DNA from: an uncultured Candidatus Thioglobus sp.
GTDB taxonomy: Bacteria > Pseudomonadota > Gammaproteobacteria > PS1 > Pseudothioglobaceae
Length of the DNA stretch: 64,000 nt
NCBI GenBank assembly: GCA_905182815.1
Contig: CAJJCX010000004.1
Location: forward strand, 1-64,000
Direction: 5' to 3'
The translations under genes were made by a program, and so were the position numbers. The notes under the pieces were generated by a model. The model was not told the DNA's origin. It did no database searches and worked only from the letters and a program-made list of their open reading frames with translations. Within the stretch, counting starts at the first letter, position 1, and each line of letters starts with the position of its first letter. Positions 15,172 through 62,739 of this stretch are shown here, in pieces.

Positions 15172-15200
15172 AATATATCCTAAATGCAATATTATTGCAA
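15172..15200 (-). promoter_or_regulatory. zrg operon promoter with palindromic operator
   Basis: On the minus strand TTGCAA (15195-15200), a 17-base spacer and TATATT (15172-15177) form a good promoter ending 30 bases from the zrgA ATG. A perfect 7-1-7 inverted repeat TGCAATA-T-TATTGCA (15185-15199) covers the -35 box and part of the spacer. Its core resembles Fur/Zur-type operators (TG..ATATTAT..CA), so repression by the operon's own Fur-family protein is likely. Confidence 0.65.
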
Positions 15201-15214
15201 TAGGGTAAATGTAA

Positions 15215-33192: not shown

Positions 33193-34227
33193 TTAAGGCA
33201 GTAAACCAATCTGTGTAAGGCCTTCCTTTTCTGCAAGCCCAAACATTAAGTTCATATTTTGGATTGCTTGTCCCGCAGCACCCTTAACTAAGTTGTCAAT
33301 AACCGACATAATTACTAGTTTATTGCTGTGTTCAATATACTGAATTGAAATCTGGCAATAGTTCGATGATTTAACTGAACGCGTTTCAGGATAAGTACCT
33401 TCAGGGAGTATTTTAACAAATTCTTCGTTTTTGTAGGCATTTTCGAAATAAGGCCTAACATTGACAGATGAATCAACAAGGTCAACATAAATCGTAGCCT
33501 CTATGCCTCGAATCATAGGAAGCAAGTGGGGAACAAAAGTTAATCCAACTGGCTTCCCAGCAATAAGTTCTAGCTCTTGCTTTATTTCAGGAAAGTGTCT
33601 GTGGCCACCAACTGCATATGGCTTAAAGCTTTCAGTTATCTCACAAAGAAGAGTTGCTTGGTTGGCAATTCTTCCTGCTCCGCTAGCTCCAGATTTGCAG
33701 TCTGCAATTATGTTTGAGATATCAATTAAGCCACTCTCAAGAAGAGGCTTTAAGGCCAGAAGAACGGCTGTTGGGTAACATCCAGGATTTGCAACTAGTC
33801 GTGCATTTTTTATAGCATCTCGTCTAATTTCAGGCTGACCATATACTGCCTCCTCAAGAAGTGAAGGCTGTGAGTGTTCCATTTTGTACCAATCTGACCA
33901 TAAGTCAGCATCATTAATCCTAAAGTCAGCACCCAAATCAACAACTTTGACGCCTTTTTCAAGAAAAGATTCAGCATTATCCATGGCAACCCCATGAGGC
34001 GTTGCAAAGAAAACAATATCACATTCAAATAAAGCTTTATCATCGGGAAGTGAATATACCAACTCTGAGAGACCATGCATGTTGGGGAAAACGTCTGATA
34101 TTTTTTTACCTTGAAGAGCCCTTGATGTAATCGAGGTAACTTCTGCAAGTGGATGTTGATGGATGATACGCAATAGTTCAATACCGGTATATCCTGAACC
34201 ACCAATTATTCCAACTTTAATTTTCAT
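33193..34227 (-). CDS. argC: N-acetyl-gamma-glutamyl-phosphate reductase
   Basis: NADPH-dependent enzyme of arginine synthesis, 344 residues. The nucleotide-binding [15 protein letters not shown] is at the N-terminus and the catalytic Cys150 lies in NPGCYPTA. It starts on the last base of the accC stop (TAATG), so translation is coupled to a fatty-acid synthesis gene, an unexpected operon partner. Confidence 0.97.
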
Positions 34228-35580
34228 TATTCTTCATCCCCAAGCATCTTTTCTAGATAGTGAATATTCATACCACCTTTCCTAAACACTTTATCGGTCA
34301 TAATTTTTCTTTGAAGTGGAATATTTGTTTTTATTCCATCAATAACCATTTCATCAAGAGCATTTTGCATCTTAATAATTGCATTATTTCGATTGTCGCC
34401 AAAAGTAATCACTTTTCCAATCATAGAGTCATAGTATGGCGGGACATTATAGCCATTATAAATGTGAGAGTCTATTCTAACTCCAAGACCGCCAGCAGCA
34501 TGGTACTGTGTAATTTTTCCTGGTGAAGGCATAAAAGTTTCAGGATCTTCAGCATTAATTCTACATTCAATAGCATGACCTTTAATTTCAACTTGATCTT
34601 GAGTTATTGATAACTTATCACCACCCGCAATTAAGATTTGTTCACGGACAATATCAACACCAGTGATCATTTCAGTTACTGGATGCTCAACCTGAACTCT
34701 AGTGTTCATTTCAATAAAGTAAAACTCATCATTATCGAAAAGAAATTCAAAGGTCCCAGCTCCACGATAGTTAATTTTTTTACAAGCTTCAGCACAAATA
34801 TTGCCAATTTTATTTCGTAATTTTGGAGAGATTCCTGGTGCAGGAGCCTCTTCTACAACTTTTTGATGACGCCTTTGCATTGAGCAGTCTCTTTCACCAA
34901 GGTGAACTGCGTTTCCATGCTGGTCCGCTAGAATTTGAATCTCAACATGGCGAGGGGTCGTTAAGAATTTTTCCATATAAACTTCACCATTACCAAAAAA
35001 GCTTAACGCCTCAGATTGAGTGAGCCTTATTGAGTCAGCTAAGTCATCTTCAGAGTCAACAACTCGCATTCCTCGGCCACCACCACCACCAGAAGCTTTA
35101 ATAATTATTGGTAAGCCAATTTCTCTGGCAATTTTAATGCTTCTTTGTTCGTTGTCATCTAATGCTCCATTTGATCCTGGAACACAAGGTACGCCAGAGC
35201 TTTGCATTGCCTCAATGGCAGCTACCTTGTCCCCCATAACCCTTATATTTTCTGCGTGTGGACCAATAAAGATAAAGCCACTTTGCTCAACTTGATCAGC
35301 AAAATCGGCGCTTTCAGAAAGAAATCCATATCCTGGATGTATTGCATCAGAGTGTGTGACCTCAGCCGCACTTATAATAGCTGGAATATTTAAGATAGCT
35401 TTTGATAGATGGATGTGGCCCAATACAAACGGCTTCATCAGCTAAACGAACGTGCTTTAAGTCTTTATCTGCTGTTGAATATACTGCTACAGTTTGGATT
35501 CCAAGTTCTTTGCAAGCCCTAAGAATTCGAAGTGCAATTTCACCCCGGTTAGCAATTAAAACTTTTTTTATTGAGCTCAT
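34227..35580 (-). CDS. accC: Biotin carboxylase subunit of acetyl-CoA carboxylase, one-base frameshift
   Basis: The N-terminal part ([15 protein letters not shown] to [11 protein letters not shown]) and the rest ([11 protein letters not shown] through the ATP-grasp domain, including GGGGRGMR and [12 protein letters not shown]) are in different frames. The join is at 35389-35391, where AAA on the coding strand should be AA: removing one A restores KSYLNIPAII, the conserved family sequence. Total length would then be about 450 residues, as usual. Because biotin carboxylase is normally essential and the change is a homopolymer slip, I treat it as a sequence error in a functional gene. Confidence 0.93.
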
Positions 35581-38090: not shown

Positions 38091-38308
38091 AAAATTATTT
38101 AAAATTGGGTAACTTTATTCAAAAGAAATAGTCAAAATCTGACGGGTTTCTGAAAGAATTACAGTATATATTATAGTCTAATCAAAGTTTTGCTCGAGTG
38201 ACGTTTCTTGGTTGCCATAGAGCTATTTTGTATAAAATCGATTCTTGATTAATTATTAAGTTATTTTAATTAGTGATTTATTAAGTAAATGAATTTTTGG
38301 TGTTTTTT
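38091..38308. other. Divergent spacer between dsbD and the decayed permease
   Basis: This AT-rich stretch has no gene. On the minus strand a TATAAT about 80 bases before dsbD is a possible -10 box without a convincing -35 partner. Confidence 0.35.
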
Positions 38309-39202
38309 ATGAAAAATCTTACTTTAAGTCCCCGTTTGATTCCATGGCTATTTGTTTTGATATGGAGTACAGGCTTTGTGGCTGCAAAATATGGCCTTCC
38401 ATATGCAGAACCTTTTACTTTGTTGTCTTACCGTAATGGCCTTACATTAATAGTGCTATTTATAATTATGCAAGTTAAGAAAAGCATTTGGCCAAGTTCT
38501 GGCATGGCATTTTTTCACTTGATGGTAACAGGTTTATTAATTCATGGAGTTTATCTTGGTGGTGTTTTTCAAGCTATTAAGTGGGAAATACCTATTGGAC
38601 TTACGGCTCATGATTATTGGACTTCAGCCACTAGGAATGGCCTTTCATTGCAGGAATAATTCTCCATGAGAGGATTATAAGAAAACAATGGATAGGTTTA
38701 ATAATAGGGTTTTTAGGGCTATATTTGGTTTTATTTGAAAAGTTTGATTTAGCTATTGAGGGATTTTTTACTGGTTTTTCTTTTCTGGCAGTTTTAGCTG
38801 TCTTTGGGTCGCTAGTTGGTATCTCTCTAGGGACTATTTATCAAAAGCGATTTTGTAGTGATATGGATTTAATTAGTGGAACTTTGATCCAATACCTTGG
38901 TGCTTTTATACTATGCATTATTATGTCCCTTTGTTTTGAGACTGGTGATATTCTTTGGACTAATGCATTTATGATTACCCTAGCTTGGCAGGTCTTTGGC
39001 CTATCAATCGGTGCAGTGCTGTTATTAATGACAATGATAAAGCAAGATGCTTTAGCAAGAGTTGGTAGTTATTTTTATCTAGTTCCAGCTCTTGTTGCTA
39101 TCCAAGCTTGGTATTTATTTGATGAAACTATGAACTTTATCTCAATAATTGGGGTTCTTATTAATAGTATTTGCAGTCGCAATAGCTAGCTCAAAAAAAT
39201 AA
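38309..39202 (+). pseudogene. EamA/DMT-family permease, three frameshifts
   Basis: The gene reads as an EamA permease only if the frame is changed three times. The start (RLIPWLFVLIWSTGFVAAKYGLPYAEP) to IGLTA is in one frame; IIGLQPLGMAF is in a second (extra base near 38610); IAGIILHERIIRKQW to IIGVLIN is in a third (extra base near 38650). The final VFAVAIASSKK needs another one-base change near 39165 and then ends at 39202. Three single-base changes in 0.9 kb, while most genes here have none, suggest real decay rather than random error. It was a ten-helix exporter of about 297 residues. Confidence 0.8.
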
Positions 39203-39233: not shown

Positions 39234-40088
39234 TTAAAGCAACCAATCCTTTACTTTTATGAAAATCTGAGAGTCCTTATTTGCAAGCCTCTCTACTACT
39301 CCAAAGTGATCTACATCTGGCTCTGCATGATAATCAAGCGGAGCATTATGCTCTTTCCATTTTTCAACAAATTTATTAGTTTGCCAATGAAATTCAGGAG
39401 TCTCTCCACCACCAAGTGCTACTAGAATGGGAGCGCTTGTTTTTGGTTCAAAGAAATGAGGGCTTAATGCTTTGCTTTCCTTATCATCTAAGCCTAGCGC
39501 ATCACCTATTGTTGTCTCTCTAATTGGATCGAGTTGATAAAGGCCACTTATTGGAATACCTGTCTTTACAATATTTTTTGGTAAGTCATTGGATATTTGT
39601 TGCCAATCTGTTGCAAGAACCATGCCAGTGATATGGCCACCTGCAGAATGTCCAGAAACATTAATTCGATTTTTTGAAATTGAGTACTTATCAGCATTTC
39701 GCCACAACCAAATGATAGCCTCTTGTATTTTTTCAACAATATTGGTCATGCTTGCACCAGGACATAGTTGATAGCCAATAAGAGCAACATCAATCCCTGA
39801 TTGCACAAATGACTCAGCTACAAAGCTATAGAATGATTTATCACCTCGCTGCCAGTATCCACCATGAATAAAAATGAATAGCGGCGCATTATCTTGTCCA
39901 CAACGAAAAATATCTAGCTTATCTTTTTCACCACTTCCATATTGACAATCAATTGAGGAATCTACAGTAGCTCTGAAAGCTGCACTTCTTTTAGTCCATT
40001 TATTAATAAGTCCGTCAAAATCATCAACTAATAATCTTACGTTATAACCCTTCTCTAATATTGGATCAATGGGTTTAGTTCTTGTCAT
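39234..40088 (-). CDS. Alpha/beta hydrolase, kynurenine-formamidase-like
   Basis: A 284-residue esterase-type hydrolase with HGGYW (residues 75-79, oxyanion hole) and GHSAGGH (Ser148). Both motifs are shared with arylformamidase and carboxylesterases of the hormone-sensitive-lipase side of the family. The late DVDHFGVVE carries the His. It is the last gene of the catabolic operon and might open a formyl ester or lactone made by the upstream flavin monooxygenases; tryptophan degradation is less likely as no other kyn gene is present. Confidence 0.85.
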   Translation of the reverse strand: MTRTKPIDPILEKGYNVRLLVDDFDGLINKWTKRSAAFRATVDSSIDCQYGSGEKDKLDIFRCGQDNAPLFIFIHGGYWQRGDKSFYSFVAESFVQSGIDVALIGYQLCPGASMTNIVEKIQEAIIWLWRNADKYSISKNRINVSGHSAGGHITGMVLATDWQQISNDLPKNIVKTGIPISGLYQLDPIRETTIGDALGLDDKESKALSPHFFEPKTSAPILVALGGGETPEFHWQTNKFVEKWKEHNAPLDYHAEPDVDHFGVVERLANKDSQIFIKVKDWLL

Positions 40089-40101
40089 TTAAAATCCTTT
40101 T

Positions 40102-40508
40102 TTAGTTAGTTCTACTTTTATAAAAAGTATCTTTATGGATAATTAGTCCATCACGGAATGTCAAGATATCAATACTCAAAAAGTCTTGAGTTTCACCAGA
40201 TTTGAGTTTTGCAAGTCGATGAAATTCACAGTAAGCTTTGTCTCCAGAAATCCGGTATCAATTGGGGTCCATTGAACACTCTCAACACTATTAAACAGTC
40301 CCTCGAAAATTCCTCTGATAGTATCCAGTCCAGAAAACCGAGTACCATTGATATTAGGCCCTGTTGCATGGTCAAACACCACATCTTCCGCAAAAAATGA
40401 CATGACTTTATCAATATCATTTTGATTGTAGGCATTAGTAATTTTATCAAGCAGATCGGTGGTTATTCCTGCTTCTTTCGTTGAAATATTTGAATTAAAG
40501 ATTGACAT
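40102..40508 (-). pseudogene. SnoaL/NTF2-like protein, one-base frameshift
   Basis: The first frame encodes a SnoaL-like cone fold (ITNAYNQNDIDKVMSFFAEDVVFDHATGP) to VQWTPIDTG, then runs off-frame to a stop at 40176. Shifting by one base near 40251 gives SGDKAYCEFHRLAKLKSGE and LTFRDGLIIHKDTFYKS ending at 40102, the expected strand-rich second half. An intact protein would have about 135 residues. Family members are small isomerases, cyclases or hydratases. It sits 9 bases from the glutathione transferase gene and 13 from the hydrolase. Confidence 0.78.
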
Positions 40509-40517
40509 AGAAGTTAA

Positions 40518-41189
40518 TTATAAATTTTTCTCACCTTTGGTTTGTAATTTCAAGAATTCTTCAGGTGAGTTGCCAAATGGCTGCATTGCGTGTTCTTTGT
40601 AAGGATTTCTCTCAGTTAGTCTTTGATACCATGCTTCAATTCCAGGCATTGATGGTCTTTTAATATCAAGGACAAAGTACTTATGTATTAAAACACCAAG
40701 AGGAATGTCACCATAAGTAAAATCATCACCAGCAACAAATTTATTATTATCTAAATGCCCCTCAAGCACTTTCAGTACTTCAGCACTCTGCTTTGCCATT
40801 TCAGCAATCTTGTTATAATCTCTTTGTGACTCTTCAGTTCGAACAAGCTGCCAAAAAACAGGAAAAAAAGTTCCCATAAAACCATCTGTAGACCAGGTCA
40901 TCCATTGATCAGAGATTGCCGCCTTTTGAGGATCTTTAGGATAAAGATTACCAAAACCATACTGCCTTGCAAGATAGCGAATTATTGCATGGGATTCCCA
41001 CAATACAAACCCATTGTCACGAATAGTAGGTATTTTTGAGTTAGGGTTAAGGGATTTATAATCATCAGCATCTAGATCACCTGATTCAGTTCCTATAGAG
41101 TGCCTTTTGTAATCAACACCTAACTCAGATAGAGTCCAAAGGACCTGTATAACTTGATTAGCATTTTTTCTACCCCAAACTTCTAACAT
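40518..41189 (-). CDS. Glutathione S-transferase family protein
   Basis: A 223-residue GST: thioredoxin-like N-terminal domain (RKNANQVIQVLWTLSELGVDYKR, then NSKIPTIRDNGFVLWESHAIIRYLA with the cis-Pro and the Glu-Ser glutathione-binding pair) and an all-helical C-terminal domain. It resembles theta/beta-like bacterial GSTs. In the operon it may conjugate or isomerise a reactive intermediate such as an epoxide or enone. Confidence 0.9.
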   Translation of the reverse strand: MLEVWGRKNANQVIQVLWTLSELGVDYKRHSIGTESGDLDADDYKSLNPNSKIPTIRDNGFVLWESHAIIRYLARQYGFGNLYPKDPQKAAISDQWMTWSTDGFMGTFFPVFWQLVRTEESQRDYNKIAEMAKQSAEVLKVLEGHLDNNKFVAGDDFTYGDIPLGVLIHKYFVLDIKRPSMPGIEAWYQRLTERNPYKEHAMQPFGNSPEEFLKLQTKGEKNL

Positions 41190-41207
41190 TTATCTAATCT
41201 CCTATTC

Positions 41208-42368
41208 TTAAACTCCATCTGGATTAAACCTGGGCATAACCCTCTCAGAAAATAAAGCCATGCTTTTGAGTATTTTTTGATAGTCAAATCCTGGAAATTG
41301 TTGAAGCAGCATAATATGATTTAGACCAATTGATTTATTAAGCTTATCAATTTTCTCAGCAACATAGTCTGCATCACCAACCCATATCAGTTCATACTTC
41401 ATAAGGAAATCAAACCACTCTCCATTGAGATCTTCATCAGTTGGATTGGCATCTTCATCTAGATAGGCTTTTCTAGTCCAACTTCCTTCTGGTCTCGAAC
41501 CACTTAGATATTCATAATAGCCATTGATTGCAGCTCTAGCATCTTTGTCAGCCTGCTCCATTGTTTCAGCAACATAAATAACGGTGCATACTCCAACACC
41601 ATCCCCTCTTTGGTATTTTGCCCCATCATGTGACTCTGCATTGGCATAGGCATCCCAACAACTTACAAGCTTTCCTGGAGGGCTCGACATGCCAATCACC
41701 TTAAATCCTCTCTCAGCAGCTAATTTATAGGTGTGTGGTGAATTCGACATTAGCCATACTGGAGGATGTGGATTTTGATAAGGCCTAGGATGGATATACA
41801 TACCAGTATATTCACCTTCTTTTGAGTGATATTCTTTTTCAAGAGGCATTAAGAATCGGTTTGTTTCTTTCCAACCGGGAACAGGGAACTCATAAAACTC
41901 TCCCTTATGTGAAAATGGATCTTGGGTCCATGCTTTTAATATGACTTCAAGAGACTCCATGAATAGTCTGTAGCTTTTTTCATTATCTCTTCGATCAGCC
42001 TCTTTATTGAATTGAATTGTCACCCTTTCATTAATACCCTTGGCAACACCAAAATCAACCCTTCCTTCAGTCATGTTGTCAAGCAGTGCTATATCTTCTG
42101 CCACTCTTAATGGATGCCAATCAGGAAGAACGATTGGTGCCTGACCTACTCTTATTCTTTTTGAGTGAGAAGCTAGATCAAGAGACATCATTATTGGATT
42201 AGGTGGAGCATTTAGATAACCATTGTGTGCAAAGTGATGCTCTGTAAGCCAAACAGTTGTGAAATCAGCCTGTTCAGCTAAATTCGTTTGCTCACGCATC
42301 ATTTTAACAACACGATTCCAAGGAATATTTTCCCCTGGATTAAAAAATGGAACAAAATCAAATCTCAT
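41208..42368 (-). CDS. Luciferase-like (LLM class) flavin-dependent monooxygenase
   Basis: The 386-residue TIM-barrel protein belongs to the bacterial luciferase-like family: ADFTTVWLTEHHF near residue 40, RIRVGQAPIVLPDWHPLRVAEDIALLDNMTEGRVDFGVAKG at about 90-130 and HPPVWLMSNSPHTYKLAAERGF near 230. Such enzymes use reduced FMN, supplied by a partner reductase, to oxygenate or Baeyer-Villiger-oxidise small molecules. A second LLM gene and a flavin reductase are in the same operon. Substrate unknown. Confidence 0.9.
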   Translation of the reverse strand: MRFDFVPFFNPGENIPWNRVVKMMREQTNLAEQADFTTVWLTEHHFAHNGYLNAPPNPIMMSLDLASHSKRIRVGQAPIVLPDWHPLRVAEDIALLDNMTEGRVDFGVAKGINERVTIQFNKEADRRDNEKSYRLFMESLEVILKAWTQDPFSHKGEFYEFPVPGWKETNRFLMPLEKEYHSKEGEYTGMYIHPRPYQNPHPPVWLMSNSPHTYKLAAERGFKVIGMSSPPGKLVSCWDAYANAESHDGAKYQRGDGVGVCTVIYVAETMEQADKDARAAINGYYEYLSGSRPEGSWTRKAYLDEDANPTDEDLNGEWFDFLMKYELIWVGDADYVAEKIDKLNKSIGLNHIMLLQQFPGFDYQKILKSMALFSERVMPRFNPDGV

Positions 42369-42424
42369 AGATATCCAAAAGTCATTTAAGTTATATCCAA
42401 ATAATTGTAAGAATTTTTTGGCAC

Positions 42425-42805
42425 TTAAATCTCACCAGCATTCTCTAAAACTTTTCTTGCAATTTTAAAACACTCAACTCCTTGAGGAACTCCGCAATAG
42501 ATTGCAATAACATGGAGTATTGATTTAATCTCATCCTTACTTACTCCATTCGTTAAAGCTCCTTTGAGGTGGATTTCCCATTCATCCATTTTTCCAAGGG
42601 CAGCAATCATTGTTAGATTCATCATAGACCTAGTTTTTTCATTAATGGTGTCATCACCCCATCCAAAGCCCCAGCACCACTCAGTCATTTGTTTTTGAAA
42701 GTCTTCGTTAAAATCATCAGCGGCCTCTAGGTTTTTTTCTACATAGTCACTTCCAAGGGTTGCTTTTCTCTTTGATAAGCCTAGTTCGAATAATTCTTTG
42801 TCCAT
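42425..42805 (-). CDS. Carboxymuconolactone-decarboxylase-family protein
   Basis: A 126-residue all-helical CMD protein similar in layout to PcaC: LGSDYVEKNL, WCWGFGWGDDTINEKTRSMMNLTMIAALGKMDEWEIHLKGAL and ILHVIAIYCGVPQGVE with a late Cys and conserved His. It lacks the CxxC of the AhpD peroxidase branch, so lactone decarboxylation or a related ring reaction is the better guess. It follows the aldehyde dehydrogenase by 30 bases. Confidence 0.88.
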   Translation of the reverse strand: MDKELFELGLSKRKATLGSDYVEKNLEAADDFNEDFQKQMTEWCWGFGWGDDTINEKTRSMMNLTMIAALGKMDEWEIHLKGALTNGVSKDEIKSILHVIAIYCGVPQGVECFKIARKVLENAGEI

Positions 42806-42835
42806 TATTTACTCCGTTAATTTTTTAAAGATTAT

Positions 42836-44305
42836 TTATCTCATTATAAAAGGATTGCTCATTGGTTCAGAAGAGGTATTAATCCAGGTTGTTTTAGTTC
42901 TAGTGTATTCATGAATAGCATCTATGCCAGCCTCTCTGCTACCACCACTTTGCTTCACTCCACCAAAAGGAGCAATAGGTGATATTGCTCGATAAGTATT
43001 AATCCAAACAATCCCAGACTGTATTTTTTCACTAACGCGATGAGCTCTTGCTAGGTTTTCAGTAAATACTCCTGCACCAAGACCATAAGCAGAGTCATTT
43101 GCCATCCTTATGGCTTCTTCCTCAGTGTCAAATGCAATGACACTTATTACTGGTGCAAATAGTTCTGTTTTAACGCAATCAAATTCCTGATTAGGACAAT
43201 CAAGTAGAGTAGGCTCAAAGTACCATCCTTCTTTTTTATGACTTGGCTTGTTCCCTCCAAAAATAAGGCTAGCTCCTTGCTTAATAGACTGTTTAACAAC
43301 GCTTAGCGCTCTTTCGACCTGATGTTTTGTGGCAAGAGGACCAACCTGTGTATCACTATCTAAGGGGTCACCAACTATAATATTTTTTGCGCGCTCTTTA
43401 ATCTTGTCAACTATTTTAGAGTGTATTGATCTTTGAATAAAAACGCGCGAGCCAGCAACACAGCTTTGCCCAGAAGCTCCAAAGTTTCCTGCAATAATGC
43501 CATTTACTGCCCCATCAATATTGCAGTCTTCAAATATTAGCATGGGTGATTTACCACCAAGCTCAAGACTTACATGAGCAAAGTTTTCAGCACTATTCCT
43601 AACAATATGTCTCGCAACTTCAGTGCCTCCAGTAAAAGCAATTCTCGCAACTTTTGGATGCGTAGTTAATACACGCCCACAGGGCTCTGCAAAGCCAGTT
43701 ATGATATTTATAACTCCAGGAGGAAAGCCACTTTTTTCAACCAATTCAGCAAATTTAAATAATGCAGCTGGGGCCTGCTCCGACGCTTTTACTACTAGTG
43801 TATTGCCAGCAGCTAAGGCAGGAGCTATTTTGGTTGCTGAAAGAAAGAGTTGAGCATTCCAAGGAACAATAGCAACAACAACCCCAATAGGTTCACGGGT
43901 TGTAAAAACACGCATATCAGGCTTGTCAATAGGAAGAACTTCTCCCTGTATTTTGTCTGCTAGGCCCGCATAGTAATAGTAGTAGTCAGAAACATAGCTG
44001 GATTGAGCGCGAGTTTCAACCGCTAACTTTCCACTATCCCTAGTCTCGAGATCACCTAATTCGCTAGCATGTTCAGAGATTAAATCACCAAGCCTATGAA
44101 TTAACTTACCTCTTTGAGTGGGGGTAAGGCTTGACCAGGCACCATCATAGAGTGCTTTATGTGCAGACTCTATAGCAAAGTTAGACTCATCTTCTGTCGC
44201 AGATGGAAAGGTTGCCCATGGCATACCATTTGCAGGATTAAGAGTCTCAAAGCGCTCTGATCCAGAACTAAACTTACCATTAATGTAGTGTTTAAAGTGC
44301 TCCAT
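42836..44305 (-). CDS. Aldehyde dehydrogenase (NAD(P)-dependent)
   Basis: A full-length 489-residue ALDH with catalytic Cys282 in GASGQSCVAGSRVF, general base Glu248 in SLELGGKSP and the cofactor-binding VPWNAQLFLSATKIAPALAAGN and FTGGTEVARHI segments. It resembles the betaine/hydroxymuconic-semialdehyde group. In this operon it should oxidise an aldehyde formed after monooxygenation and ring opening. Confidence 0.93.
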   Translation of the reverse strand: MEHFKHYINGKFSSGSERFETLNPANGMPWATFPSATEDESNFAIESAHKALYDGAWSSLTPTQRGKLIHRLGDLISEHASELGDLETRDSGKLAVETRAQSSYVSDYYYYYAGLADKIQGEVLPIDKPDMRVFTTREPIGVVVAIVPWNAQLFLSATKIAPALAAGNTLVVKASEQAPAALFKFAELVEKSGFPPGVINIITGFAEPCGRVLTTHPKVARIAFTGGTEVARHIVRNSAENFAHVSLELGGKSPMLIFEDCNIDGAVNGIIAGNFGASGQSCVAGSRVFIQRSIHSKIVDKIKERAKNIIVGDPLDSDTQVGPLATKHQVERALSVVKQSIKQGASLIFGGNKPSHKKEGWYFEPTLLDCPNQEFDCVKTELFAPVISVIAFDTEEEAIRMANDSAYGLGAGVFTENLARAHRVSEKIQSGIVWINTYRAISPIAPFGGVKQSGGSREAGIDAIHEYTRTKTTWINTSSEPMSNPFIMR

Positions 44306-44317
44306 GTCCCATCCTCT

Positions 44318-45355
44318 TTAAGTAAATTCAGGCATCACTTTTTCAATAAAAAGCTCTAAAGATTTCTTTTTCTTTTCAAAGCTCATGCTACTATCAATCC
44401 AGTAACTATATTCGTCAAAACCAAGATTCTCGCAAAACTTAATACGCTCAATAACTTTATCAGGAGTTCCTATAATACTATTTTGACGCATTTTTTCAGG
44501 TGAGTACATTTCAATCTTAGACATTTCTTCTTCCGTAAGTTTCTCAATAAGCCCTTGATTAATAGGTCTTTCATTTTTAAACCATGCACCAAAATAACAG
44601 TAGAATCTAGATATATCTTTAGCGCCTTGAACAACTTCTTCTTCACTCTCACCCACAAATGTATGGCGTAATACCATTATTTTTGGACGCTCTATATCTT
44701 TAAATTTCTCACAGGAGTTATTGAATTTTTCCATCAATGAGACAACCTCATCATCACCAAGCCATAGAGGAGTTACTTGAACATTGCAGCCCTGCTGAAC
44801 TGCAAAGTCATGAGAATGTTGATCCCTTGCTGCAATCCAAATGGGCGGGTGAGGGGATTGAAGGGGTTTTGGTGAGCTAGTAGTTTTTGGGAAGGACCAG
44901 TGTTCTCCTTCACCTGTGTAGTCACCTCTCCACAAGCCCTTAATTGCTGGGACAATCTCTCTCATAGCGCTTCCAGCTGAAAAAGGATCTATACCATCTG
45001 CAAGGCGGTCATACTCAAAAGAGTAAGCTCCTCGAGCTATACCAATTTCAAGCCGACCTCCTGAAATAATATCGGTCATTGCCGCTTCTTCAGCAAGTTT
45101 TATTGGGTGCCAAAAAGGAGCAATAATTGTTCCAGTTCCAAGCCTAACATTCTTTGTTTTGTTGGCTAAATCAGCTAGATTTACAAATGGATTTGGAGCA
45201 ATAGTGAAGTTCATGCCGTGATGTTCACCAGTCCATATTGTTTTGAAACCTGACCTATCAGCTATTTGACATAACTCGACATACTCCTCATACAAGCGCT
45301 TTTGCGACTGCTCCTCATCTATTCTTTCCATTTGTATAAATAAAGAAAAATTCAT
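44318..45355 (-). CDS. Second LLM-class flavin-dependent monooxygenase
   Basis: A 345-residue luciferase-like TIM barrel: RSGFKTIWTGEHHGMNF, KNVRLGTGTIIAPFWHPIKLAEEAAMTDIISGGRLEIGIARGAYSFEYDRL and HPPIWIAARDQHSHDFAVQQGCNV. It is distinct from the 386-residue paralogue downstream, so the two may act in sequence or as a heteromer. It lies 11 bases after the flavin reductase gene, which should supply its reduced flavin. Confidence 0.9.
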   Translation of the reverse strand: MNFSLFIQMERIDEEQSQKRLYEEYVELCQIADRSGFKTIWTGEHHGMNFTIAPNPFVNLADLANKTKNVRLGTGTIIAPFWHPIKLAEEAAMTDIISGGRLEIGIARGAYSFEYDRLADGIDPFSAGSAMREIVPAIKGLWRGDYTGEGEHWSFPKTTSSPKPLQSPHPPIWIAARDQHSHDFAVQQGCNVQVTPLWLGDDEVVSLMEKFNNSCEKFKDIERPKIMVLRHTFVGESEEEVVQGAKDISRFYCYFGAWFKNERPINQGLIEKLTEEEMSKIEMYSPEKMRQNSIIGTPDKVIERIKFCENLGFDEYSYWIDSSMSFEKKKKSLELFIEKVMPEFT

Positions 45356-45366
45356 ATTAATAGCTC

Positions 45367-46314
45367 CTACACATTTTGATTAGTTTTACTTATAGCCTCT
45401 ACATTGCCTTCACTTTCCTTACCCACAAATACTCCGAAAGCATTTAAATCTCTTTCTGCAATATAGCGTTTAAGCATTATTCTACTTGCATCATCAGCTA
45501 GAAGTTCAAACGGTATTGAATCAAATTCATAGAATTGTCCAGTAGTTATAGATGAGCCATCTTCGACTTTTGTGCGGTAATATATAAGACTAGTTTTATC
45601 ATCATTATTTTCAAATACTGAAAATAGATAGTGTTCATTAATATGTATTTTTTGCTTTTGGAGACTTCCAAGAAGACTTTCTTCGTCAGAAGTTGAACCC
45701 AGTCTTGAAGCATTTGGGAAATAAAGCATTCCAGTTGTTTGATCTGTAAGAAGAAATATTTTTTTTCGCCATTCAATTAACGCCCCAACAATTATTTTTG
45801 TGTTTTTATTTTCCATTGCAAGGAGCATTTTTTGTTCAAGTCCGAGATTAACATAATTTCCTCGTAAATAAACCAGTGGGGTTTGTGGATTGTATCCAAA
45901 CTCCCTTACCTTACCAATAAGAATAAGGTGATCACCACCCTCTATAATATTATCCGTATCACAATCAAACCAGGCAACTGAGTCAGATATGATAGGGCTT
46001 CCTGTAGTTTTTGATTTCCAAGAAATATTTTTAAAGCGATCAGTTTCAGGGCTTGCAAAAGTGGTTGATATATGTTGCTGACTTTCAGAGAGAACACTAA
46101 CTGCAAAACTTCCACCTTTAGAAAACGACTCTATGTTGAAAGACTCCTTGTCAATACATATCAATATTAATTGAGGCTCTAACGACACTGAAGTGAAAGA
46201 GTTCGCAGTAAATCCTACTGGACTTCCATCTTTATCTTTGGCTGTAACCACAGTTACCCCTGTTGGAAAAGAGCCAAGTGCTTGTCTTAGATCCCGTGTT
46301 TCTTCTGTTTTCAT
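45367..46314 (-). CDS. Two-domain flavin reductase with unusual C-terminal domain
   Basis: Residues 1-155 form a flavin reductase-like domain (LGSFPTGVTVVTAKDKDG, FTANSFTSVSLEPQLILICIDKES, GGDHLILIGKVREFGYNPQTPLVYLRGNY). The other 160 residues form a separate domain (KIIVGALIEWRKKIFLLTD onward) with a Nudix-like strand pattern but no Nudix catalytic box. HpaC/NtaB-type reductases normally stop at about 170 residues. The extra domain may sense a ligand or dock the monooxygenases. It overlaps the upstream hydrolase gene by four bases. Confidence 0.87.
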   Translation of the reverse strand: MKTEETRDLRQALGSFPTGVTVVTAKDKDGSPVGFTANSFTSVSLEPQLILICIDKESFNIESFSKGGSFAVSVLSESQQHISTTFASPETDRFKNISWKSKTTGSPIISDSVAWFDCDTDNIIEGGDHLILIGKVREFGYNPQTPLVYLRGNYVNLGLEQKMLLAMENKNTKIIVGALIEWRKKIFLLTDQTTGMLYFPNASRLGSTSDEESLLGSLQKQKIHINEHYLFSVFENNDDKTSLIYYRTKVEDGSSITTGQFYEFDSIPFELLADDASRIMLKRYIAERDLNAFGVFVGKESEGNVEAISKTNQNV

Positions 46315-47162
46315 GTAGTAGTATTGGTAGTGTTATTAAGAAAATGTTCTATTATTGGGTTAACTTTTTTTGCCGATATATATGCCATCATATGCGCCTC
46401 ACTTTCAATGGACTCACTCCAGCTATTTGGAGTTTCTTGAGCCATTTGTTCAGACATTAGCGAAGTAGAATTAGGGTCTTCACTCCCGGTTAAGTATAAA
46501 ACAGGTGGTTGTAAGTTTGAAAGATTATTTACAAAAACTCGATCAGATGTAGCAAATAAATAGTAAGCTTCTGCGTAAGCTTTTGGCGAGGTATTGTTAA
46601 GCCAGCTTCGAACATTATTAATCTTCAGTAAATCATCAGGGCTGGTTTTGTTTTTAAACCACCTTTCAAGTGTTTGACTAATATTAGTTATTTGTTGAGA
46701 TTTAAAGACATCTTTAGCCCTCATAATTACATCATCTTGGGCTTTTTTAGTTCTCTTAAAGACAATATTTATGGGAATGAGTGTGTCAACTTTTCTAGGA
46801 TATTTTAATGCGAATGCAACCGCAATAATTGCCCCCATTGAGTGTCCAATTAATGAAAAGTTTGTAACTCCAATCTCATTAACAAGATTGTATAGTTGAG
46901 TTACATAGTCTTCTAGGGTGAGTTTGTCCTTTTTGAGCACGCTTTTTCCATGACCTAAAAAGTCATAAGTTATTACGCGATAATCTTTTGAAAAATGTTC
47001 AACTTGAGGCTGCCATATTTCTCCACACATTCCAACACCATGTATAAAGATCAATGTAGCAGGTTCGTCTCCAAAGATTTTGTAGGCTGTACCATCTTTA
47101 TCAAAAAGAGAGGGGATATCTGAATAATTGCTTAATTCAAGGTCTTTCACAAGCCAGTCCAT
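46311..47162 (-). CDS. Alpha/beta hydrolase, first gene of the catabolic operon
   Basis: A 283-residue hydrolase with HGVGMCGEIW (oxyanion region, residues 41-50) and GHSMGAI (Ser108), plus a cap region of about 80 residues before the late acidic residue and His (TGSEDPN, EAHMMAYISA). The layout matches MhpC-like C-C-bond hydrolases and lactonases. As the promoter-proximal gene of a flavin-monooxygenase cluster it may hydrolyse the substrate ester or the lactone product. Confidence 0.87.
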   Translation of the reverse strand: MDWLVKDLELSNYSDIPSLFDKDGTAYKIFGDEPATLIFIHGVGMCGEIWQPQVEHFSKDYRVITYDFLGHGKSVLKKDKLTLEDYVTQLYNLVNEIGVTNFSLIGHSMGAIIAVAFALKYPRKVDTLIPINIVFKRTKKAQDDVIMRAKDVFKSQQITNISQTLERWFKNKTSPDDLLKINNVRSWLNNTSPKAYAEAYYLFATSDRVFVNNLSNLQPPVLYLTGSEDPNSTSLMSEQMAQETPNSWSESIESEAHMMAYISAKKVNPIIEHFLNNTTNTTT

Positions 47163-47237
47163 TTATAAATGTTTGTAAAATATTCTTACAGGGCACACAC
47201 CTTTTTCTCTCACTGCCTGCCGACTTGAGTAATAAGA

Positions 47238-47266
47238 AATATAGAGTATTAAATGTTATGTGTCAA
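47238..47266 (-). promoter_or_regulatory. Near-consensus promoter of the catabolic operon
   Basis: On the minus strand TTGACA (47261-47266), exactly 17 bases, TATATT (47238-47243). Transcription would start near 47231, giving a leader of about 69 bases to the hydrolase ATG at 47162. This is the best -35 box in the window. Confidence 0.82.
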
Positions 47267-47300
47267 GGGACAAAAATATGCGATTTTTTTAAGAATATGG

Positions 47301-47349
47301 CTTATTATCTAAAAAAAATTACTTAATATCTAAAAAAATGATTAAAAAA
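47301..47349 (-). repeat. Phased A-tract direct repeats upstream of the catabolic promoter
   Basis: CTTATTATCTAAAAAAA (47301-47317) and CTTAATATCTAAAAAAA (47322-47338) differ by one base and are 21 bases apart, two turns of DNA; a third A-run is at 47344-47349. They lie 35-85 bases upstream of the -35 box, suiting an activator site or intrinsic bend. Confidence 0.6.
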
Positions 47350-47442
47350 TGGTAATTTGACTATTTTTGTATATAAAAACATTGTTATTAGTTAAAAAAT
47401 AGCTAAAAATAGCTCATTTTTATGAAAATTAATGTATTTATA
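47350..47442. other. AT-rich spacer between catabolic operon and hydroxylase gene
   Basis: No gene is seen. A short direct repeat AAAAATAGCT occurs twice in tandem (47395-47414). Orientation of any signal is unclear. Confidence 0.35.
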
Positions 47443-48058
47443 TCAAAAAATACCCTTAAATAGTGTTTTTAACTCATCATTTACGAAGCAATCTATAACT
47501 AGGTGGTACCTATCAATATTACTATTATTGCTTACGGAATGATGTTTCGTAACGTCAAGGTAGTAATAGTGCCCTGTTTTGAGATTAAATAACTTGCCTT
47601 TTAGATCATTTTCATTTTCATAAAAAGTAAAAATAACATCATTATTGGTCCTAATTGGAATATGAAGCCTGGCAATCTTTTTATTTTTAATATCATCATC
47701 TATATTGTCTGTATGCTTTTTAAGAGATCTTGCCTGCAACTAATTTTGTAAATCGAATTCTCTCAAAATTACAAGGTAGCTTAGAGATCATTTCACTTAT
47801 TGGCTTCATAGTAGGTTCATTGAATAGCGAAGTCCACTGCAATTGAGTGTCAACTTCTACCTTTGTATCTACAAAACCTGGTTTAAATATATCTGATGCA
47901 TTTGAGCCAAACCCGTGAAGAGATAATGCTGTCCAAATATTATTGTTTTTATAAGGCGCTATTTGAGTTAACAGTTGAAAATTCATTCCATCGAGGTAAT
48001 CCGCAACACCTGATAAATCACCCTCATAGGGCTCTATTGGAATTCTTAAATTATGCAC
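47443..48058 (-). pseudogene. Aspartyl/asparaginyl beta-hydroxylase-like protein, one-base frameshift
   Basis: The first frame (48058 down to 47720) ends FERIRFTKLVAGK; the second resumes SLKKHTDNIDDDIKNKKIARLHIPIRTNNDV and continues to 47443. Removing one base near 47735 joins them into about 204 residues. The combined sequence has the family pattern: HTD with the first metal His, RLHIPIRTNNDVIFTFYE, then KHHSVSNNSNIDRYHLVID with the distal His and Arg for 2-oxoglutarate. Such Fe(II) dioxygenases hydroxylate Asp/Asn or small molecules. Whether the break is real is unknown. Confidence 0.78.
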
Positions 48059-53263: not shown

Positions 53264-54429
<1,166 letters not shown>

Positions 54430-54462
54430 TTTTTTTTAAACAGTTTTTATAAGTAGGAGTAA

Positions 54463-54699
<237 letters not shown>

Positions 54700-54733
54700 A
54701 TTGTATTCTTTTAATAATTAAGGGTATTAAGTT

Positions 54734-55204
54734 ATGAATATTAACCTTACACTCATTGGGCAAACAATCATGTTTGCCATGTTTGTCTTGTTCTGCATGA
54801 AGTTTGTTTGGCCTCCACTCGTTGAGGCAATGGCTGCTCGCAAAAAGGCAATCGAAGATGGATTAAAAGCTGCAGAACTTGGAAAAGAAGAGCATGCTTT
54901 AGCCCAGAAAAATGCTGAAGATCTAATAGAAAGTACTAAAACCCAAGCGGCTGAAATTATTGCAAATGCTGATAAACAAGCTAATGGAATGATTGATAAA
55001 GCTAAAGGCACAGCTTCTGAAGAGGCTGATAAGATTAAAGCACACGCTAAGTCTGAACTAGACCAAGAGGTTGTGAAGGCACGTAATGAGCTTAAAAATC
55101 AAGTCTCAACTTTGGTTATGCAGGGAGTCAACTCAGTTTTAGAGAAAGAAGTTGATGCTAAGGCACATAAAGATATGCTTTCTAAGTTGTCTCAATCACT
55201 CTAG
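54734..55204 (+). CDS. atpF: ATP synthase Fo subunit b
   Basis: A 156-residue subunit with one N-terminal membrane helix (about residues 5-25, [20 protein letters not shown]) and a long charged coiled coil rich in Ala, Glu and Lys. It forms the peripheral stalk together with subunit delta. It lies between atpE and atpH. Confidence 0.97.
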
Positions 55205-55213
55205 GACGGTAGG

Positions 55214-55762
55214 ATGGAATTATCAACAATTGCCAAGCCATACGCTCAAGCGATTTTTGAAATTGCTGAACAAAGTAATTCTGTTTTAGGATGGAGTGAC
55301 TTTTTAGCTGCTGCTACTGTAATTATGGCTGATAAAAATACAAAGACTTTTATTGCATCTCCAAGCAAAAGTAAAAATCAAAAATTTGATTTAATTTCTG
55401 CTTTAATTGCAAGAATGACTTCAAAAGATTTAAGTAAACAAGAGGCGGCTTTTATTAATCTTGTTTTAAACAACGATCGTTCGAGTGCAATTAGCAGTAT
55501 AGCTAATGTGTTTGAATCGACAGTTTCTAATGCTAACAAGAGCAAGAACTTTAAAGTTATTAGCGCTTATGAGCTTAGTGAAGACGAACAAAAAGCAATC
55601 GTTAAAGATTTAACAAGTAAACATAAAACAACTGTATCTGTTGAAACTGAAATTGATGTGACCCTTAAAGGTGGTGTCATTATTAAAGAAGGTGATAAGG
55701 TAATTGATACATCAATTAAGGCAAAAGTAGATGCTCTAGGCGTCTCCTTGTCTGTAAATTAA
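55214..55762 (+). CDS. atpH: ATP synthase F1 subunit delta
   Basis: A 182-residue subunit with the helical N-terminal domain (STIAKPYAQAIFEIAEQ) and the C-terminal GGVIIKEGDKVIDTSIKAK motif that is diagnostic for the delta/OSCP family. It joins the stalk to the top of F1. Confidence 0.97.
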   Translation: MELSTIAKPYAQAIFEIAEQSNSVLGWSDFLAAATVIMADKNTKTFIASPSKSKNQKFDLISALIARMTSKDLSKQEAAFINLVLNNDRSSAISSIANVFESTVSNANKSKNFKVISAYELSEDEQKAIVKDLTSKHKTTVSVETEIDVTLKGGVIIKEGDKVIDTSIKAKVDALGVSLSVN

Positions 55763-55783
55763 TTTTATAAAGAGAGGTTAGTT

Positions 55784-57325
55784 ATGCAATTAAATGCTTC
55801 TGAAATCAGTGATTTAATTAAAAAAGAAATAGAGGGGTTTGACTTTTCAGCTGAAGCTCGCACAGAAGGCACAGTAATTAGTGTAAGTGATGGAATCGTT
55901 CGTATTCATGGTCTAGCAGATGCTCAGTTTGGTGAGATGCTAGAATTTCCAGGAAATACTTTTGGTTTAGCGCTTAACCTTGAACAAGATTCTGTTGGTG
56001 CAGTTGTATTAGGTGACTACCTTCACATTTCAGAAGGCGACACTGTTAAGTGTACAAATCGAATTATGGAAGTGCCAGTTGGTAATGAGCTGCTTGGACG
56101 CGTTGTTAATCCTCTTGGAGTAGACCTAGAAGGTAAGGGAGAAATAAAAACATCTATCACTCGCCCAATTGAGGTTGTTGCTCCTGGTGTTATTGAAAGA
56201 CAATCAGTTGATCAACCAATTCAAACTGGTATTAAGGCGATTGATGCAATGGTTCCAATTGGACGTGGTCAGCGCGAACTTATTATTGGTGATCGCCAAA
56301 CTGGAAAAACTGCCGTTGCAATTGATGCCATTATTAATCAAAAAGGTACAGGCGTTAAATGTATCTATGTTGCAATTGGACAAAAGGCGTCTTCAATTGC
56401 TACTGTAGTTCGCAAGCTTGAAGAGCATGGAGCATTAGAGCATACTATTATTGTTGCTGCAGCCGCTTCTGACTCTGCAGCTCTTCAATATATTGCTCCT
56501 TACGCTGGATGTGCAATGGGCGAATATTTCAGAGATCGTGGCGAAGATGCACTAATTGTTTATGATGATTTGACAAAGCAAGCGTGGGCATACCGCCAAG
56601 TATCGCTTCTTTTAAAGCGCCCACCAGGACGTGAAGCATATCCAGGTGATGTATTCTATCTTCACTCTCGTTTATTAGAAAGAGCATCAAGAGTTAATGC
56701 GGAGTATGTAGAAAAAGTAACAAATGGAGAGGTGAAAGGTAAGACAGGTTCTTTGACAGCTCTTCCTATAATTGAAACTCAGGCTGGAGACGTTTCGGCG
56801 TTTGTTCCAACAAATGTAATTTCCATTACAGACGGTCAAATCTTCTTAGAAACAGACCTATTTAACTCTGGTATTCGACCGGCAATTAATGCGGGCCTTT
56901 CAGTTTCTAGAGTTGGCGGTGCAGCACAAACTAAAATTGTTAAGAAGCTTGGTGGTAGTATTCGCCTTGACTTAGCACAGTATCGTGAATTAGCGGCGTT
57001 TGCTCAGTTTGCATCTGATTTAGATGCTGAAACTAAAGCTCAAATTGATCGAGGCATACGCGTAACCGAACTAATGAAGCAAGCACAATACTCCCCTCTA
57101 AATGTTGCTGAAACTGCGACGTCACTTTTTGCTGCTAATTCTGGCGCACTAGATGATGTTGAGGCGAATAAAGTTGTTGCATTTGAAGGCGCACTTTTAG
57201 CTTATATGAATGCTAATCAGGCTGAATTGATGGCATCTATTAATGAGTCTGGTGACTACAATGATGATATATCAGCAAAACTTCAAGCTGCTATTGATGA
57301 CTTTAAAGCTAACAATACCTGGTAG
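55784..57325 (+). CDS. atpA: ATP synthase F1 subunit alpha
   Basis: A 513-residue non-catalytic nucleotide-binding subunit. Walker A GDRQTGKT is at residues 169-176, and the family signature [17 protein letters not shown] lies further on. The length is normal and there is no frameshift in the gene. Confidence 0.99.
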
Positions 57326-57331
57326 AAAGAT

Positions 57332-58195
57332 ATGGCAGTAGGCAAGGAAATTAGAACACAAATTTCGAGTATTAAAAATACTCAAAAGATTACTTCGGCC
57401 ATGGAAATGGTTGCCGCTTCTAAGATGAAGAAAGCGCAAGATAGAATGCTCGCTTCACGTCCGTATGCTGAAAAAATTCTTAATGTTATTGGACATCTGA
57501 CTCATGCTAACTCTGAGTTTAAACATCCATATATGACCTCTTCAGAAGAGAAAAAGCGTGTAGGAATTATAGTTATTTCAAGTGATAGAGGGCTTTGTGG
57601 TGGTTTAAACACCAATTTATTTAGAAGCCTTTTAAAAGATATAGCTGCTTTGCAATCAGATAAAGTTGAGGTTGAGCTTTGTACGATTGGTAAAAAAGCA
57701 ACTTCATTTTTTAAAAATACTGGACTTAAAATTAACTCTGTTCTTACTGATATTGGTGATAAGCCTCAATTTGATGATCTTTTAGGTACTATCAAAGTAA
57801 TGCTTGATCGCTATGACTCAGGTGAGATTGATCAAATCATGATTGCTTATAATAAGTTTGCAAGTGCAATGACACAAGTCCCAACTGTCAAGCAAATTGT
57901 GCCAATGGAGGTTACTGATGAAACCAGTAAGGATCACCACTGGGACTATTTATATGAACCAGATGCAGAGAGTGCACTAAGCGCACTATTAGTTAGGTAT
58001 ATCGAAGCATTAGTTTATCAAGGAATTGTAGAAAACATTGCTTGTGAGCAATCTTCTAGAATGATAGCCATGCATAGCGCAACAGAAAATGCAGGTGATA
58101 TGATTGATGAGCTACAATTAATTTATAACAAGGCAAGGCAGGCAGCTATTACTCAGGAAATATCTGAGATTGTAGCAGGCGCTGCTGCTGTTTAA
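57332..58195 (+). CDS. atpG: ATP synthase F1 subunit gamma
   Basis: A 287-residue rotor subunit with the N-terminal helix [30 protein letters not shown] and the C-terminal signature [40 protein letters not shown]. It lies six bases after atpA. Confidence 0.98.
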
Positions 58196-58203
58196 AGATT
58201 TAA

Positions 58204-59598
<1,395 letters not shown>

Positions 59599-60015
59599 AT
59601 GGCAGTAATACACGTTGATGTAGTTTGCGCAACTGAGGAGATATACTCAGGTGAGGCAAAGTGTGTATTTGCGCCAGCTACAAACGGCGAGATTGGTGTC
59701 TACCCTATGCATGTTCCTTTAATAAGTACACTTAAACCTGGTGAAGTCAGAGTTGAAACTGAAAATGGTGTTGAATCTATTTTTGTCTCTGGTGGCATCA
59801 TTGAGGTGCAGCCTGACACAGTTACAATATTTTCTGATACAGCTATTCGTGCTGGTGATTTAGATGAGTCAAAAGCCCTCGAAGCGAAAAAGCGCGCTGA
59901 AGAAGCTATGTCTAGTTCGCAGACAGAACAGGATATTTCTACTACTCAAGCAGCACTTGCTGAGTCAATGATGCAGCTTCAAATGATCTCTAAGATGAGA
60001 GGGAAGAAGCGCTAG
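59599..60015 (+). CDS. atpC: ATP synthase F1 subunit epsilon
   Basis: A 138-residue subunit with the N-terminal beta-sandwich (GEIGVYPMHVPLISTLKPGEVRV) and a C-terminal helical pair. It starts immediately after the atpD stop. Its stop overlaps the stop of the convergent MGMT-type gene by three bases (CTAG). Confidence 0.97.
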   Translation: MAVIHVDVVCATEEIYSGEAKCVFAPATNGEIGVYPMHVPLISTLKPGEVRVETENGVESIFVSGGIIEVQPDTVTIFSDTAIRAGDLDESKALEAKKRAEEAMSSSQTEQDISTTQAALAESMMQLQMISKMRGKKR

Positions 60016-60317
60016 TTTGATTTAAAGAGTACAGACTGAAAATTAACAATCTTATTGTTTGACACACGAACGCCTTCTTTTTGAAGGCGTTTTATTTTGA
60101 CGCTGATGTCATCCGCAAAGCCACCTAATTCGCCGTTTGATTTAACAACTCGATGGCACGGCACGGTTGGTGCAAATGGGTTTTTATTCATTGCACTGCC
60201 AACTGCGCGATGTGCGTTGGGTCTTCCAATCATTTCCGCAAGGCCTCCATATGAAATTACATTGCCAGCAGGAATTTTTTTTAAAGCCTCATAACATTCT
60301 GATTGAAAGGATGTCAT
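60012..60317 (-). CDS. MGMT-family DNA alkyltransferase-like protein, short form
   Basis: The 101-residue protein is just the C-terminal domain of O6-alkylguanine-DNA alkyltransferase: RPNAHRAVGSAMNKNP (DNA-binding helix), PCHRVV with Cys54, then GGFADDISVKIKRLQKEGV. Its size is that of alkyltransferase-like proteins, which usually have Trp in place of Cys; here Cys is kept, so direct methyl transfer is possible. Part of its coding sequence doubles as the terminator of the atp operon. Confidence 0.9.
   Translation of the reverse strand: MTSFQSECYEALKKIPAGNVISYGGLAEMIGRPNAHRAVGSAMNKNPFAPTVPCHRVVKSNGELGGFADDISVKIKRLQKEGVRVSNNKIVNFQSVLFKSN
60069..60098 (+). terminator. ATP synthase operon terminator, inside the convergent gene
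   Basis: AACGCCTTC-TTTTT-GAAGGCGTT (60069-60091) is a perfect nine-base stem followed by TTATTTT on the plus strand. It lies 54 bases after the atpC stop but within the coding part of the minus-strand MGMT-type gene, where the same bases encode RLQKEGV. The minus strand lacks a U-run, so it should act only on the atp transcript. Confidence 0.88.
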
Positions 60318-60847: not shown

Positions 60848-60855
60848 GGGCTTAT

Positions 60856-62499: not shown

Positions 62500-62505
62500 A
62501 AATTT

Positions 62506-62739
62506 TTAATTGTTAATTGAGTGAATTTTTTTTGGTACAGGATCATAACTTGCCTCTGACCATGGGTGGCACTTACTAATTCTTTTTGCTCCGAGAGTAA
62601 CTCCTTTGACAGCTCCGTGATATTTGATAGCATCGAATGTATACTCTGAGCAGGTTGGAATGTGACGGCAGTTGCTTCCTAACAGAGGACTAACAATCCA
62701 TTGGTATAATTTAATTAGAGGTAGAAGTAGAAATTTCAT
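62506..62739 (-). CDS. yidD: Membrane protein insertion efficiency factor YidD
   Basis: A 77-residue protein with the YidD pattern [34 protein letters not shown] and [17 protein letters not shown], including three conserved Cys. It lies between rnpA (four-base overlap) and yidC in the standard order. Confidence 0.97.

Follow-up and report, generated by a model that had tools for sequence, protein, structure and literature searches.

Trigonelline and homarine are phytoplankton osmolytes, and the genes for the latter reportedly form an operon named homABCDER. The closest described system for trigonelline is the tgn cluster (Perchat et al. 2018, known here via citation), which is present as an annotated copy in Acinetobacter sp. 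PK01, and that for homarine is a more recent operon (Ferrer-Gonzalez et al. 2026, Nat Microbiol, via citation). In the accessible part of PMC8269262 homarine is given as up to 3% of particulate carbon, a later correction, likewise accessible in part, stating that concentrations were overstated, and Ruegeria pomeroyi is described as growing more poorly on homarine than on trigonelline. The locus analysed here lies in a window (the whole stretch of 64,000 nucleotides, nt) from a Candidatus Thioglobus genome (1.32 Mb, 4 contigs, 76.8% complete), where nine minus-strand open reading frames (ORFs) at 39234–47162 probably form, judged from sequence, a composite operon for breaking down trigonelline and homarine, which are isomeric N-methylpyridinium carboxylates. 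Like the tgn cluster, the five upstream genes follow the order hydrolase, reductase, luciferase-like monooxygenase (LLM) and aldehyde dehydrogenase (ALDH), being 35–66% identical, with a carboxymuconolactone decarboxylase-like (CMD) gene nearby.

The initial annotation had described this span as a nine-gene co-directional flavin-monooxygenase catabolic operon of unknown substrate. The nine genes and their direction were recovered, seven of the eight intergenic gaps are below 60 nt as it had stated for most of them (from hyd2 to hyd1: −4, 11, 12, 30, 56, 18, 9 and 87 nt), Pfam agrees with the protein families it had named for all nine proteins, and neither a regulator nor a transporter occurs among the ORFs inside the nine-gene span. 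Its description as a catabolic cluster that looks like one transcription unit is therefore retained, whereas the substrate is no longer without a candidate for five of the genes, because the hydrolase–tgnA–tgnB–tgnC order and the sequences match those of PK01, with the CMD gene nearby.

A trigonelline-type gene block

The five upstream genes (47162–42425) are listed below.

46311..47162, minus strand: hyd2, alpha/beta hydrolase, relative of the tgn-cluster hydrolase (Abhydrolase_1; 34.9% identity to the hydrolase preceding tgnA in Acinetobacter PK01)
45367..46314, minus strand: fred, TgnA-like two-domain flavin reductase (Flavin_Reduct; 37.1% to TgnA of PK01; solved structure 3rh7 matched over residues 5–310 of 315, in agreement with the two domains proposed initially)
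44318..45355, minus strand: llmB, TgnB-like luciferase-family oxygenase (66.1% to annotated TgnB across 345 residues)
42836..44305, minus strand: aldh, TgnC-like aldehyde dehydrogenase (55.2% to annotated TgnC)
42425..42805, minus strand: cmd, carboxymuconolactone decarboxylase-like protein (46.3% to the CMD gene near the PK01 tgn cluster)

A tblastn search of plasmids with llmB yielded 408 matching records, among them tgnB of Acinetobacter sp. PK01 at 66.1% identity, where it follows a PF06684-type gene, a hydrolase gene and tgnA and precedes tgnC, with genes for SSADH and CMD beyond; the hydrolase–reductase–LLM–ALDH order was also observed on Rhizobium etli and Phyllobacterium plasmids. In a tree of 26 rows, llmB was placed within a 12-row set containing TgnB (support 100/99), and llmA, the oxygenase of the four downstream genes, was placed in a separate 7-row set (100/100), so that llmB is assigned to the TgnB-type oxygenases by identity and by shared tree set, and it is linked to TgnA and TgnC relatives in the order hydrolase-A-B-C. 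The cmd product reached 123.1 bits against the PcaC model, below the cut-off of 155.7. By sequence and by gene order, the five genes belong to the trigonelline system, with two features of the canonical cluster missing.

These relationships also bear on the chemistry first suggested for the locus, a type II Baeyer–Villiger system acting on a cyclic ketone or terpenoid. In its favour, 3,6-diketocamphane monooxygenase (4uwm) is of the same luciferase family and matches llmA (E 1.6e-13) and, more weakly, llmB (E 8.2e-06). Both LLMs have nearer relatives, since llmA is better matched by bacterial luciferase alpha chains (E 5.6e-20) and llmB shares 66% identity with TgnB, its tgn partner genes standing in tgn order, and a Baeyer–Villiger system is accordingly considered hardly credible.

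The tgn LLM was detected in 25 of the 29 genus genomes, many of which are incomplete, and in 27 of 83 genomes of the order, of which two lie outside the genus, both in one sister genus. The same gene order in other genomes, which the initial annotation had proposed to look for, was found for this block: hyd2, fred, llmB, aldh and cmd are kept in this order in 19/19 fetched Thioglobus loci as far as the contigs reach, by which chance clustering is ruled out. The block occupies a fixed site, with a gene of 298–310 amino acids (aa) next after cmd in 13 of the 19 loci (EamA by Pfam in the one checked), and downstream of this EamA-size gene most loci show ORFs sized as in the window. The most divergent member is hyd2, with a mean protein identity of 58.7% within the genus.

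The llmA cassette and its junction with the block

The remaining four genes (42368–39234) form a cassette of their own, and they are given here together with the junction.

42369..42424, minus strand: junction between tgn block and cassette (DNA homology to the cassette of congener G028 ends at 42369)
41208..42368, minus strand: llmA, cassette oxygenase, proposed homarine monooxygenase (Bac_luciferase; 58–66% to proteobacterial relatives)
40518..41189, minus strand: glutathione transferase, GST (N- and C-terminal GST domains; best solved relative 6nv6, E 1.4e-53)
40176..40508, minus strand: SnoaL-like protein of 110 aa with a broken frame in comparison with congeners (SnoaL_2; one base shorter than in G028, where the ORF continues)
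39234..40088, minus strand: hyd1, proposed N-deformylase (alpha/beta hydrolase; motifs HGGYW and GHSAGGH)

The 87-nt gap comes after the SnoaL gene, whose one-base deletion relative to G028 is either a sequencing error or a mutation. The llmA relatives of 58–66% identity are distributed over ten loci of roseobacters, SAR116, a Chromatiales symbiont and other proteobacteria, and relatives of the LLM, GST, hydrolase and SnoaL genes occur together in Ruegeria, Litoreibacter, HTCC2083, Octadecabacter and SAR116 loci, which shows relationship and not function. In Ruegeria meonggei a divergent HTH-cupin gene is followed by LLM, GST, flavin reductase, hyd1-like and SnoaL genes. A search with the llmA profile hit 2 of 398 genomes of the phylum, among them that of the window, and the plasmid relatives of llmA comprised 6 records at 27.5–29.6% identity. 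In Rhodobacteraceae HTCC2083 (L027 11126–12529) a longer SnoaL protein and a CMD protein 69% identical to that of the window are encoded after the cassette, and the CMD may on this account serve both modules. A cassette 84% like the Thioglobus one was also seen on a contig titled Rhodospirillales bacterium UWMA-0295 (L019 1–3029), which may be a misbinned Thioglobus contig.

Differential histories were observed for the two modules. An llmA match was present in 12 of 58 relatives, the window genome counted, and the cassette LLM in 12 of the 29 genus genomes; 11 of these 12 carriers hold both modules, whereas 14 of the 25 tgn-bearing genomes, many incomplete, show no cassette LLM match, and the modules are thus separable. 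None of the other 11 Thioglobus carriers has its cassette attached to a tgn block: ten have a gene other than cmd before llmA, among them G028, whose cassette adjoins an APS kinase gene, and in G004 the contig ends there, the tgn locus of that genome having cmd followed by a different gene.

At the junction, DNA homology to the G028 cassette extends over 39234–42369 at 90.7% and covers the four genes only, and the cassette of the window sits between cmd and the EamA gene. In G015 and G024, cmd adjoins the EamA gene with identical flanking bases, representing an empty site; the site is likewise empty in G002, where the contig starts at cmd and the tgn block is 99.7% identical over 4565 bp; and G009 retains, between cmd and the EamA gene, a 348-bp remnant of the hyd1 3' end at 94.5% identity, representing a scar. 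An assembly artefact at the junction is unlikely given the remnant of G009 at the same place, and the empty sites together with this remnant indicate that the arrangement is no assembly error and that the cassette was gained or lost among close relatives, which provides a natural experiment on its gain and loss. The EamA gene of the window (38297–39189) itself has a frame break relative to congeners.

The initial annotation had regarded the whole as a single undescribed pathway, and two separable modules with different genomic histories were found in its place; homologous clusters already tied to another pathway, which it had named as grounds for refutation, exist for the five tgn-type genes, by the order and sequences of PK01, and the other four are a separate cassette. 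One pathway of nine genes with two oxygenation steps on one substrate would agree with the short gaps and the single upstream promoter candidate, but the tgn-bearing genomes lacking a cassette LLM, the unjoined cassettes of all 11 other carriers and the empty sites of G002, G015 and G024 make it very improbable. In the 56-nt junction no minus-strand promoter-like or terminator-like site was found by a weak scan (23 promoter-like sites versus 30.7 in shuffles), and the tgn promoter and its leader would then drive all nine genes as one transcript, because the cassette follows cmd without a recognisable promoter.

Predicted promoter and conserved leader

Upstream of hyd2 two elements were delimited, which the initial annotation did not contain and of which the leader is the most novel part of the locus.

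47238..47266, minus strand: predicted operon promoter, TTGACA-17-TATATT (11 of 12 consensus matches)
47192..47229, minus strand: conserved 38-nt leader with a 21-nt core, an A-rich linker and the 3' sequence GTGTGTGCC (upstream-region alignment)

The promoter scan alone is no evidence, as it returned 23 sites where shuffled sequence gave 30.7; both hexamers, again 17 nt apart, precede the leader in 23/23 Thioglobus copies. The leader follows directly downstream with a length of 38–40 nt and is single-copy in 23 of the 29 genus genomes; of the six in which it was not found, G014, G021, G022 and G025 are without an llmB match, and in G011 and G018 the contig ends at or before hyd2. Over the 23 copies the 21-nt core shows a mean pairwise identity of 0.988, the last nine bases reach 0.971 and the linker 0.807; three flanking windows gave 0.377–0.429, the promoter span approximately 0.53 and the hyd2 protein 0.587, where the nucleotide windows of leader and flanks were compared ungapped and indels lower the flank identities. 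This strong 5' leader conservation precedes, in 23/23 copies, an ORF of more than 150 codons beginning 29–41 nt downstream, and since the −10 hexamer ends 7–9 nt before the core, the transcript would start close to it.

Rfam gave two matches at E ≤ 5 within 47000–47500, neither of them overlapping the leader at 47192–47229. A search model built from 9 of the 12 distinct variants (the 40-nt and two 39-nt variants dropped) matched 78 of 369 Gammaproteobacteria at E ≤ 0.05, the window included, which is above the nominal rate with rough E-values; the window leader scored 68.4 bits and the next best match 27.0. For 11 of the 77 outside genomes the best leader match was inspected, none having any of the nine proteins within a locus of about 3 kb, and these 11 looked like chance. 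Moreover, no match under E 0.3 was found in another 43 named loci, no leader within 6 substitutions before the tgn block of the sister-genus genome G436, no conserved leader by eye before stand-alone cassettes, and no exact copies in viral contigs with two patterns.

Interleaved CUCA/UGAG and GGCA/UGCC repeats in the leader permit an H-type pseudoknot, with a GGCA..UGCC hairpin as the alternative structure. It is tentatively suggested, as a possibility on the doubtful side, that the 38-nt leader represents a new small ligand-binding RNA class, perhaps an H-type pseudoknot with an A-rich loop, sensing trigonelline or its ring-opened product, and this estimate was set slightly lower because only 11 of the 77 outside matches were inspected and the G005 variant breaks pairs. 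The leader could, with a chance not far short of even, instead be a DNA operator over the transcript start, that is, a repressor or roadblock site and no RNA element. Its beginning 7–9 nt past the −10 hexamer would suit an operator, as would the whole 78-nt leader folding no better than shuffles (z −0.42), the disruption by the G005 variant of pairs in both proposed structures, and the lack of covariation, no pair being altered on both sides for either structure among 9 sequences in which most pairs never vary. An operator is less readily reconciled with three of the four leader variants folded alone, at z −2.22, −2.57 and −1.99 (the fourth at +0.79), with an asymmetric conservation of 38 nt comprising two interleaved inverted repeats and an A-rich linker, unusual for an operator, or with a nine-gene set containing no regulator gene. 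Were the ligand-binding RNA real, a single osmolyte switch would control the trigonelline genes of the window together with the captured homarine-type ones, and this regulatory RNA, responding to an algal osmolyte, would be short enough for direct testing. No description of the module fusion or of the leader was found in open-licence papers, in searches mostly not aimed at them.

Proposed metabolism and comparison with known systems

In the trigonelline branch, the TgnA-like reductase would supply reduced flavin to the TgnB-like oxygenase, which may open the trigonelline ring to N-methylformamido hydroxybutyrolactone, the TgnC-like dehydrogenase would oxidise this compound, and hyd2 probably cleaves the resulting product. 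Methylamine, formate and a C4 semialdehyde would be the products of this last step. In the second branch, llmA is proposed to cleave the homarine ring next to its nitrogen, giving an N-formyl-N-methyl intermediate from which hyd1 would strip the formyl group, and GST and SnoaL would isomerise or hydrolyse intermediates towards N-methylglutamate. We infer this route by counting carbons and by analogy to the tgn chemistry. The cassette is without its own reductase gene in Thioglobus and could use the TgnA-like reductase. In the accessible part of PMC8269262, TgnA/TgnB are argued to be sterically unlikely to act on homarine, and a second oxygenase for homarine would fit this argument. The part of PMC13390433 that was accessible lets Mgd take part in homarine catabolism. 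As to the further fate of the products, the genome encodes GmaS (674.6 bits against a cut-off of 469.6), preceded by three ORFs that, as read from sequence, look like MgsABC, and two sarcosine-oxidase/Mgd-type loci, one of them broken in the assembly. In Ruegeria meonggei (L241 4061–12001) a tgn cluster lies beside sarcosine-oxidase/Mgd-type genes, as on the PK01 and Phyllobacterium plasmids.

The cassette is probably a homarine module. Gene content, homology, the fixed tgn site, the cassette boundaries, the empty site and the scar are read directly from sequence, whereas substrates, reactions and co-transcription in this organism, and above all the link to homarine, are inferred. As an unlikely though not negligible alternative, the five-gene block would serve trigonelline and the llmA cassette would act on some N-heterocycle or N-methylated ring compound other than homarine. 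With 23–26% identity of llmA to TgnB and llmB, its substrate is not readable from TgnB, and among Bacillus, Arthrobacter and their kin more distant llmA relatives (36–39%) neighbour a PF06684 gene and an ALDH gene of tgn type, which places the llmA branch in more than one context; against this stand the occurrence of the cassette in marine roseobacters and SAR116, the Ruegeria meonggei layout, whose five enzymes and single regulator agree with the name homABCDER, and the frequent co-occurrence with tgn, as six of ten non-Thioglobus cassette genomes hold a TgnB relative of at least 57%, two one of only 36–37%, and two none at E ≤ 1e-40.

Several observations weigh against the composite reading for trigonelline and homarine. 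A PF06684 gene and an SSADH gene are both absent from the window block; a PF06684 relative is unlinked (G000:C1:383413), and the best SSADH relative, also unlinked, is in two frame-broken pieces (G000:C4:469269–470694) whose neighbours resemble a polyamine transporter by eye, although such linkage is a trait of the relatives examined and may not be required by the pathway. The hyd2 protein and the reductase are only 35–37% identical to their tgn counterparts. The hyd1 protein is nearer to solved lipases and esterases than to formamidase (9n8r 'Lipase 1', 1.2e-34; 2pbl putative esterase, 2e-28; 4e11 kynurenine formamidase, 7.5e-20), its best NCBIfam model being hormone-sensitive lipase at 186 bits, below the cut-off of 320. 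Ten other Thioglobus carriers keep both modules at separate places in the genome, and the fusion is thus not required; G025 (89% complete) has the cassette with no tgn LLM found, a sign that the cassette may do without the TgnA-like reductase. In addition, the models do not tell sarcosine oxidase from Mgd at either locus. If the operon does join both routes, as we consider probable, Thioglobus would be a consumer of osmolyte carbon and nitrogen; no open-licence paper combining Thioglobus with trigonelline was found.

Other features were observed in the window outside the operon. The ORF at 34227–35438, read as biotin carboxylase, has 403 aa compared with approximately 450 in congeners, and the pairs 982–2088/2287–3435 and 51451–52077/52064–53113 look like broken genes by eye, the frame breaks of the window being either sequencing indels or pseudogenes. 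A low-complexity ORF with long DEH/HDE repeats (14452–14979, minus strand), lying by eye beside ABC-exporter-like genes, is possibly a metal-binding protein or a misread frame. ATP synthase genes followed by yidC- and rnpA-like genes were recognised by eye at 53605–63089, an arrangement often located near the replication origin.

Among the known systems, a likeness is also seen to clusters of Siminovitchia, Bacillus, Sporosarcina, Arthrobacter and Sinomonas (L035–L040), which combine an LLM 36–39% identical to llmA with a TgnC-like ALDH (44–52%), a PF06684-type gene and a flavin reductase, and which differ from the window cassette in a BCCT transporter (L037–L040) and a GntR-type regulator (L035, L037–L039), with no GST, SnoaL or hyd1 relative flagged in L035–L040; those of Siminovitchia, Bacillus and Sporosarcina (L037–L040, approximately 4788–15672) are perhaps a Gram-positive version of N-methylpyridinium catabolism. 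The likeness to the homarine operon is drawn from the layout in R. meonggei and from the roseobacter and SAR116 relatives rather than gene by gene, and compared with that layout the Thioglobus cassette has four genes, without reductase or regulator. Compared with the tgn cluster, the window block is without the PF06684 gene, SSADH, regulator and transporter, while its CMD gene immediately adjoins the block, a second cassette is fused to the end of the block, and a conserved leader precedes it.

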